Notes under the pieces: generated by a model | Told to the model about the DNA's origin: nothing | Seen by the model: the letters and a program-made list of their open reading frames with translations, nothing else | The model's database searches: none | Source of the DNA: Acidobacteriaceae bacterium | Lineage (GTDB): Bacteria; Acidobacteriota; Terriglobia; Terriglobales; Acidobacteriaceae | Direction of reading: 5' to 3' | NCBI GenBank assembly: GCA_003134815.1 | Contig: PLCO01000017.1 | Location: 29,269-93,268, forward strand | DNA: 64,000 nucleotides | In this document: positions 12,040 through 13,463 of the stretch, one piece after another | How the letters are laid out: each line of letters opens with the position of its first letter | Numbering within the stretch: the stretch's first letter is position 1 | Translations under genes and position numbers: made by a program

Positions 12040-12457
12040 CTAGATCAGCTCGTAGCCGGCGAACCAGTAGCCGATCTCGAAGGCCGCAGTGTCCGCCGCG
12101 TCGGAACCGTGGATTGCGTTCTCCTGAAGCGAGCGCGCAAATTTCTTGCGGATGGTTCCCTCTTCGGCGTTGGCGGGGTTGGTGGCGCCCATCAGCTTCC
12201 GCAGATCGGCGATCGCATTGTCCTTCTCGAGAACCATGAGAAACAACGGACCTGAAGACATGAAGTCCGTGAGGTCTGAGAAGAACGGCTTGGCGCTGTG
12301 TACGGCATAGAAGCCTTCGGCCTCGCGTTTGGTAATCGATTCCTTCTTGATGGCGACAAAACGGAAGCCGGCCTTGTCAATCTCGGCCAGAATGGCTCCT
12401 GTAAGTCCGGCGGCTACCGCGTCCGGTTTAACGATGCTGAAGGTGCGCTCGAGCACT
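12040..12457 (-). CDS. ndk: Nucleoside diphosphate kinase
   Basis: [31 protein letters not shown]...[23 protein letters not shown] start at 12457. Confidence 0.96.
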
Positions 12458-12630
12458 AGTGGGTTGCTCCTTGTTGGCGAATTTTGGGGTCGAATTTTCT
12501 CTCTATTCCATTGTAGTGGAAGGCTTTTGGCGCTGTGCAAGCGGGCTTCGAACGTGCGGATTCAAGCGGCAAATGCCGCTACAGCGTACGATCCATTACT
12601 TTCGTACATTGTCCGAGAGAGTCTGAGTTT

Positions 12631-12966
12631 ATCCCCCGAAAGTGCTATTCAGAAGACGTTTTTGGCGCAGACAAGCAATTTGATTTCTGCTACAAGTATC
12701 GAAGTAGCCAGAAATGTCCCGGGTTGTACAACCGGATTAGCAGTTGCCAATCGATCGGTTTTGGGGATTAAGAATGGCGTTCGTTGTTCTTCAAGCAGTT
12801 CATCCCCCAAAAGTGCTATTCAAAGGACGTTTTTGGCGCAGACAAGCGATTTGATTTCTGCTACAAGTATTGGTGTAGCCAGAAATGTACCGTGTTGAAC
12901 GACTGAAATAAAAGTTGCCGACAGATTTGCTTTGGGGATTGAGAATGACGTTAGTTGTCTTTCAGA
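12631..12966. repeat. Two-copy tandem repeat, period 171 bp, containing a conserved stem-loop
   Basis: Copy 1 from 12631, copy 2 from 12802, no indels by eye over about 165 bp. Both carry ATTTCTGCTAC-loop-GTAGCCAGAAAT and TTTGGGGATTrAGAATG. Confidence 0.88.
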
Positions 12967-13463
12967 TCGCTGCCGTGGTTGCCATCGCAATAGTTCTTTT
13001 GCGCTGGCGCAAAAGCGCGCAGCGCCGCAACTCGCAATCATGGGAGACCTTGCTTTCCCGGCTCCGCCCTGAGTGGAGCGCCCGCGAGTTGAGCGACCAT
13101 TTCCTGTGGCAGGAAGGTTTGAGCGCCACTCCTGAAGATGCATGGCAGCGCATGGAAGGTCCGAAGGGCCTGTGGGTGATGTACCAGAATGCGCGCGTCA
13201 TGCAGGAGATGGCAGGCTACGCCGCCAACCAATGCAAAGACGTGGATCGGCTGCTCATCGAGACTTTACATAGCGACGCGATGCAGATTCGTGTTTGCGT
13301 GCTGGCAGCCCTGACGCAGTACGCGTTCCGTCATGCCAGCGAAGGTGTCCGCGTGAACGCATTCCGCGCCGCCTCAATCTACACCGGCATGGCAGCGCGC
13401 ATGACGCAGTTGCTGCAGGAGCACGCAGCAGTCATGGTTCCGGACTTTGTAGCGGCAATGTAA
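12945..13463 (+). CDS. Hypothetical protein with N-terminal transmembrane helix
   Basis: MTLVVFQIAAVVAIAIVLLRWRKSAQRR...; start inside repeat copy 2. Confidence 0.65.
   Translation: MTLVVFQIAAVVAIAIVLLRWRKSAQRRNSQSWETLLSRLRPEWSARELSDHFLWQEGLSATPEDAWQRMEGPKGLWVMYQNARVMQEMAGYAANQCKDVDRLLIETLHSDAMQIRVCVLAALTQYAFRHASEGVRVNAFRAASIYTGMAARMTQLLQEHAAVMVPDFVAAM

Follow-up and report, generated by a model that had tools for sequence, protein, structure and literature searches.

The region upstream of a small membrane-protein gene at position 12945 of the window (the 64,000-nucleotide stretch of DNA analysed here) is tandemly repeated, which raises the question of what the repeated element is and what its duplication does for the gene that follows. 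A repeat search returned two ungapped head-to-tail copies of 168 nt that are 83% identical and spaced 171 bp apart, with differences at 28 of 168 positions (31 of 171 when counted over the full period), in agreement with an earlier note on this DNA, which had described a duplication of period 171 without indels and with about 28 substitutions. Only 3 of the 28 differences fall in a central 60-nt stretch starting at 12639 (permutation p 0.024). The copies lie between ndk (Pfam NDK, minus strand, 12040-12459) and the gene, hereafter gene B. A search of the whole genome (4.18 Mb, 66 contigs) found no third copy, and a dispersed repeat or mobile element is ruled out by the presence of just two copies in the genome. 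The elements of the duplication are as follows.

12626-12793, plus strand: tandem copy 1, comprising leader and the first ~7 codons of B (repeat search, profile matches)
12774-12854, plus strand: 26-codon mini-ORF that starts at the duplicated ATG (MAFVVLQA..., followed by unrelated sequence)
12797-12964, plus strand: tandem copy 2, joined to intact gene B (repeat search; leader profile match of 52 bits)
12934-12947, plus strand: ribosome-binding region and start of B (GGGGATTGAGAATG), a conserved 3' block of the leader profile
12945-13463, plus strand: gene B, for a 172-aa predicted membrane-anchored helical protein without a Pfam match (family search, predicted structure)

The duplicated unit begins inside the leader and ends at codon seven or eight of B. 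As the earlier note had stated, the copy 1 ATG at 12774 opens a mini-ORF of 26 codons (MAFVVLQAVHPPKVLFKGRFWRRQAI, then a stop codon). This ORF begins with 7-8 codons that repeat the opening of the real gene (MTLVVFQI...), which means that the repeat spans the junction of leader and coding sequence. The duplicate start and the mini-ORF are present because the unit in the source genome ends 7-8 codons inside B; the extra start is thus incidental to the position of that end point. The role of decoy that had been proposed for the upstream leader copy is possible.

Gene B is present in 72 of the 81 genomes searched in the genus, the Terracidiphilus/Occallatibacter group of Acidobacteriaceae, often in more than one copy, and in 41 of 43 when only good-quality genomes of the genus are counted; its carriers include Occallatibacter savannae and Terracidiphilus gabretensis. 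It was absent from the searched genomes of other families in the same order and class. The AlphaFold model of the product (pLDDT 77) has a predicted N-terminal helix at residues 2-29 followed by a helical bundle, which supports the earlier reading of this ORF as a small membrane protein. No Pfam or NCBIfam family was matched above cut-off and no PDB entry was matched by the model below E 0.28, so assigning a function to B from sequence or fold was set aside. Two loci (L020 and L022) harbor a second B gene about 1 kb from the first, each a whole-gene duplicate with its own leader copy, which indicates that the leader travels with B.

Downstream of B, an aldo/keto reductase gene is found in 9 of 9 mapped loci. 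Upstream of B, the six mapped loci outside the source clade have a gene for a ~270-aa polytopic membrane protein, hereafter gene A, and the source genome and three others (G035, G022, and G038) have ndk, DinB, and prmC in its place. The source genome retains one A gene, on another contig. Similar to B, A retrieved no Pfam or NCBIfam family above cut-off, and no function was assigned to it on that account. A and B are thus a genus-wide membrane-protein pair without a known family, and as a result the leader offers a handle on when B is used.

The origin of the leader became apparent from a comparison of about 90 upstream regions of B within the genus. In four of these (L034, L036, L071, and L077) an A-type ORF reaches the start of B, with its stop codon overlapping the B ATG, and in a fifth (L064) a 61-codon in-frame A tail following a complete A gene is found at the B start. 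In the remaining loci the frame of A is broken or the gene is gone, and the tail is still there. A coding profile of the five tails matched decayed leaders with up to 146 bits (L026 146, L056 102, L061 101). Its match to copy 1 of the source genome is modest at 14.5 bits, the best of 1700 dinucleotide shuffles reaching 4.4, and copy 2 alone gave no match to this profile. The source copies are tied to the coding tail via intermediates, through an iterated leader profile that, applied to 89 target sequences from in front of B orthologues throughout the genus, matches 70, including both source copies (75 and 52 bits) and both copies in the sister genome G038 (61 and 48 bits). This genus-wide recurrence bears out the earlier proposal that the repeat is a cis-regulatory element.

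The intermediates include A copies that are cut off near the leader boundary (L016 and L050 stop at -110, L063 at -125, L061 at -92, and there are others). The direction of change, gene first and leader second, follows from the homology of the leader tail to the C-terminal sequence FSPQMxSFLL... found in ordinary A proteins, and these are not located at the B start. At the level of sequence comparison, the similarity to an intact coding homologue together with a broken frame identifies the leader as the decayed last ~60 codons of the upstream membrane-protein gene A.

The conservation within the decayed tails is of a different kind from that of a coding sequence. Across 60 decayed leaders, third codon positions carry 0.71 bits, second positions 0.72 bits, and first positions 0.56 bits, and conservation is clustered. 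Because third and second positions are conserved to the same degree, what is constrained is not a protein, and no codon-type constraint is seen in the decayed copies. In the leader profile, per-column conservation is 1.2 bits at columns 91-100 versus 0.18 at columns 141-150, and the conserved blocks are GTTACTTtnGTGCA, ACAAAAG, nCACAA, TTCTGnTAnnAnT, CCGGG, GGTTACCAAA, and the ribosome-binding site. The leader has a GC content of 44% and the surrounding window one of 60%. From this nucleotide-level conservation we infer that the tail survives because it carries the control signals of B. One highly conserved block lies at the 5' end.

12596-12614, plus strand: 5' conserved block TTACTTTCGTACATTGTCC (family consensus GTTACTTtnGTGCAnTG), leader profile columns 7-20, of high information

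This block is single-copy, just outside the duplicated unit, and matches the codons for (S)YLGAL of gene A in the four loci with an A-type ORF reaching B. No second exact site was found in the source genome, ruling out a regulon sharing the block.

The core of the leader comprises nCACAA, 17 bp, and TTCTGnTAnnAnT. Extended -10 promoters of the sigma-70 type have the form TGnTATAAT with a weak -35 element, and the family-wide pattern nCACAA / nnGACA - 17 bp - TGnTAnnA suggests that the leader core is a sigma-70-like promoter of this kind. Of 69 leaders, 63 have the motif TGnTA where it is expected; in contrast, only 1 of 30 ordinary A genes has it at the homologous codons. A -35-like element is present at 16-18 bp, the best match to TTGACA averaging 3.34 of 6 positions compared to 2.49 in shuffles, and the spacing is 17 bp in 45 of 61 cases. 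Both copies in the source genome contain the candidate promoter.

12668-12696, plus strand: putative promoter P1, CAGACA 12668-12673, 17 bp, TG 12688-12689, TACAAG 12691-12696 (family-wide conservation)
12839-12867, plus strand: putative promoter P2, CAGACA 12839-12844, 17 bp, TG 12859-12860, TACAAG 12862-12867 (as P1)

These candidates share with extended -10 promoters the TGn directly before TA, the weak -35, and the 17-bp spacer. They differ in that the final T of the hexamer is usually missing (TACAAG, as in P1 and P2, or TACTAG), in the extra conserved blocks, and in having only a putative start. Across the leaders only 5% have the final T of the hexamer, and 84% have a T one base later. 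A simple, stringent consensus scan, which requires the final base of the -10 hexamer, found no plus-strand promoter in the region. Part of the genus (L023, L027, L028, L029, L031, L035, and L040) has, ahead of the leader and some 200-250 bp before B, another promoter-like block, GAAAGTgTCATTgACT-N17-TARGTTACT, which the source window lacks.

We consider it probable that the repeated element is the promoter-leader of B, derived from the tail of A, and that its duplication in the source genome provides two serial promoters. By comparison, the element arose within the 3' end of A, such that the last ~60 codons of A overlapped the putative B promoter and the ribosome-binding site, and that copy of A has decayed or vanished in most of the genus. 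The 171-bp tandem duplication would have put two promoters in series, 171 bp apart, and both may fire. From the proximal promoter a leader of ~70 nt would be expected, and from the distal promoter a longer mRNA carrying the duplicated ribosome-binding site, the start codon, and the 26-codon mini-ORF before B. The truncated start on this long transcript would be accidental and non-productive. The likely effect of the duplication is more, or differently timed, transcription of B.

The promoter core does not account for GTTACTT, ACAAAAG, CCGGG, or GGTTACCAAA, and as such an operator or other function may share the region; the function of the 5' block TTACTTTCGTACATTGTCC is likewise left unexplained by it. 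The core could alternatively be mainly an operator, with a factor binding the dyad-like TACtAGTA / GTAC together with the GTTACTT block and the duplication doubling its sites. The extension of conserved blocks past the promoter core would fit such a role, as would the palindromic consensus TACTAGTA, with conservation of at least 84% at each of positions 0, 1, 4, and 6. However, complementarity across the dyad does not exceed that of shuffles at any pair (best 73 of 1000), on which ground a palindromic operator was rejected; the strict dyad is absent in relatives, so that the inverted-repeat operator of the earlier note gained no support; and the GTTACTT block occurs once in the genome, outside the duplicated unit. 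We regard an operator as the main role of the core as unlikely, though one overlapping the promoter is conceivable.

Returning to the serial promoters, the scanned leader sequences show how restricted the duplication is. The sister genome G038, with B 90% identical, has a tandem duplication of the same promoter core with a period of 113 bp, and among the scanned leaders the same core is duplicated only in the source genome and this sister. The others are single-copy, with the exception of L090, which has a different 71-bp repeat. Of the informative sites, eight group the two copies of one genome together and none groups a copy of the source genome with one of G038. Two independent duplications fit these sites, as does one shared event followed by homogenization or gene conversion.

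A more elaborate account would have the promoter born in gene A, outliving A genus-wide, and independently duplicated in the two sisters, with a dual-start arrangement in the source genome whose extra start codon and mini-ORF on the long mRNA (the latter ending inside P2, with its stop just upstream of the P2 -10) tune B by ribosome occupancy or by polymerase reading through P2. We think this account improbable.

The leader might instead be neutral: a dead gene's tail that has yet to be erased and was duplicated by chance, with B transcribed from elsewhere. That the leader is certainly a decayed coding tail is in keeping with this. Nevertheless, conservation persists in short blocks at distances where B has diverged strongly at silent sites (pS 0.40-0.65), the source genome and G038 show a difference of 13-22% in the left part of the leader against a dS of 0.58, and the unit stayed with B in its new neighbourhood beside ndk. 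We consider a neutral relic very unlikely.

Each copy of the leader also contains a hairpin-like inverted repeat.

12683-12715, plus strand: inverted repeat of hairpin form in copy 1, with the left arm overlapping the putative -10 region (folding; unconserved in other leaders)
12854-12886, plus strand: hairpin-like inverted repeat of copy 2 (folding; unconserved in other leaders)

The arms (12683-12693 / 12704-12715 and 12854-12864 / 12875-12886) are identical between copies, with one bulged C and changes at 3 of 10 loop positions, just as the earlier note had described them. In the source genome the hairpins fold with z scores of -3.6 and -3.1, outliers among 66 leaders with a mean of -0.39, at which the hairpin is overall as stable as in shuffled sequence; the G038 copies give -0.2 and +1.1, and G006 gives -1.1. 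Over 150 nt, the source copies likewise fold better than shuffles (z -2.7 and -3.0). The right arm drifts in relatives, and the stem is peculiar to the source genome. When the 11 source pairs were placed on 14 close leaders, 77.0% were paired versus 75.5% in shuffles (84 of 500), i.e., no excess of pairing, and RNAalifold gave next to no consensus fold (4 pairs at -0.39 kcal/mol, without any compensatory change). Rfam searches returned no match for the element at a loose threshold or for five relatives at the gathering threshold, which agrees with the earlier statement that no known riboswitch class was recognized; the sole Rfam hit of any kind, ArcZ at E 4.8, lies inside the coding region.

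The hairpin is thus not a conserved RNA structure. Its left arm, ATTTCTGCTAC, includes the TG and first bases of the -10, and the arms are identical between copies because the promoter core is conserved: they sit within the 60-nt stretch holding 3 of the 28 differences, which is the whole promoter core. In this lineage the hairpin would have come about incidentally, from the -10 region together with the initially transcribed sequence, and its left arm would not be transcribed from its own promoter. A structured cis-regulatory RNA (a new riboswitch or leader RNA with the hairpin under selection and the upstream copy as decoy), of the kind that the earlier note had proposed, is therefore the least probable of the explanations and highly improbable: against the good folding of the source copies and their identical arms, the hairpin z scores of the nearest relative are near or above zero, no described RNA family was matched, and orthologous leaders show neither covariation nor stem conservation, the very outcome that the note had named as refuting its proposal. 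That note was correct and sharp in its observation and wrong in its main inference.

The individual steps of the proposed history have counterparts elsewhere. Tandem duplication is a known process of promoter duplication, and the present case has in common with it two head-to-tail promoters before one gene; it differs in that the copies are 17% diverged, and therefore long-lived, and in having either a separate origin in two sisters or homogenized copies. Intragenic promoters located toward the 3' end of the preceding gene have been mapped in Campylobacter jejuni and Helicobacter pylori, and whether such promoters are conserved tends to go with whether the downstream orthologue is present (PMC3847290). 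The candidate promoter of B similarly lies inside upstream coding sequence; in contrast to those, its host gene is decayed or gone in most species, and the promoter persists and is tandemly duplicated. Compared with bacterial pseudogenes and gene remnants (for example PMC522871 and PMC11078800), the leader is alike in being a frameshifted, truncated paralogue tail and appears to differ in being kept as a control region, with the constraint on nucleotides and not on frame. A literature search of limited journal coverage turned up no close precedent for the reuse of a gene remnant as a promoter, which is weak evidence.

The loci compared here would form a series of steps, from a coding tail with a promoter, to a broken frame, to loss of the gene, to promoter and gene in a new place, to a duplicated promoter, showing how a promoter in bacteria can be born within a neighbouring gene and persist after its loss. 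This is an instructive case of promoter evolution and not an exotic one. It also carries a caution for RNA-motif hunting in single genomes, where a hairpin with identical arms in two copies can amount to a conserved promoter plus a duplication.

Two further repeats were seen near these genes. In many relatives, an ORF consisting of proline-rich units in tandem, nearly identical to one another (for example MSPVIVPPLPPTVPSANQTVAD, about seven times over), lies upstream of A (L034 1-477, L033 1-375, L037 3-428, L024, and L023 3-254) and is absent from the source locus. A small palindrome, AGCGGCAAATGCCGCT, is located at window positions 12565-12580, between ndk and the leader, and is altered in G038.
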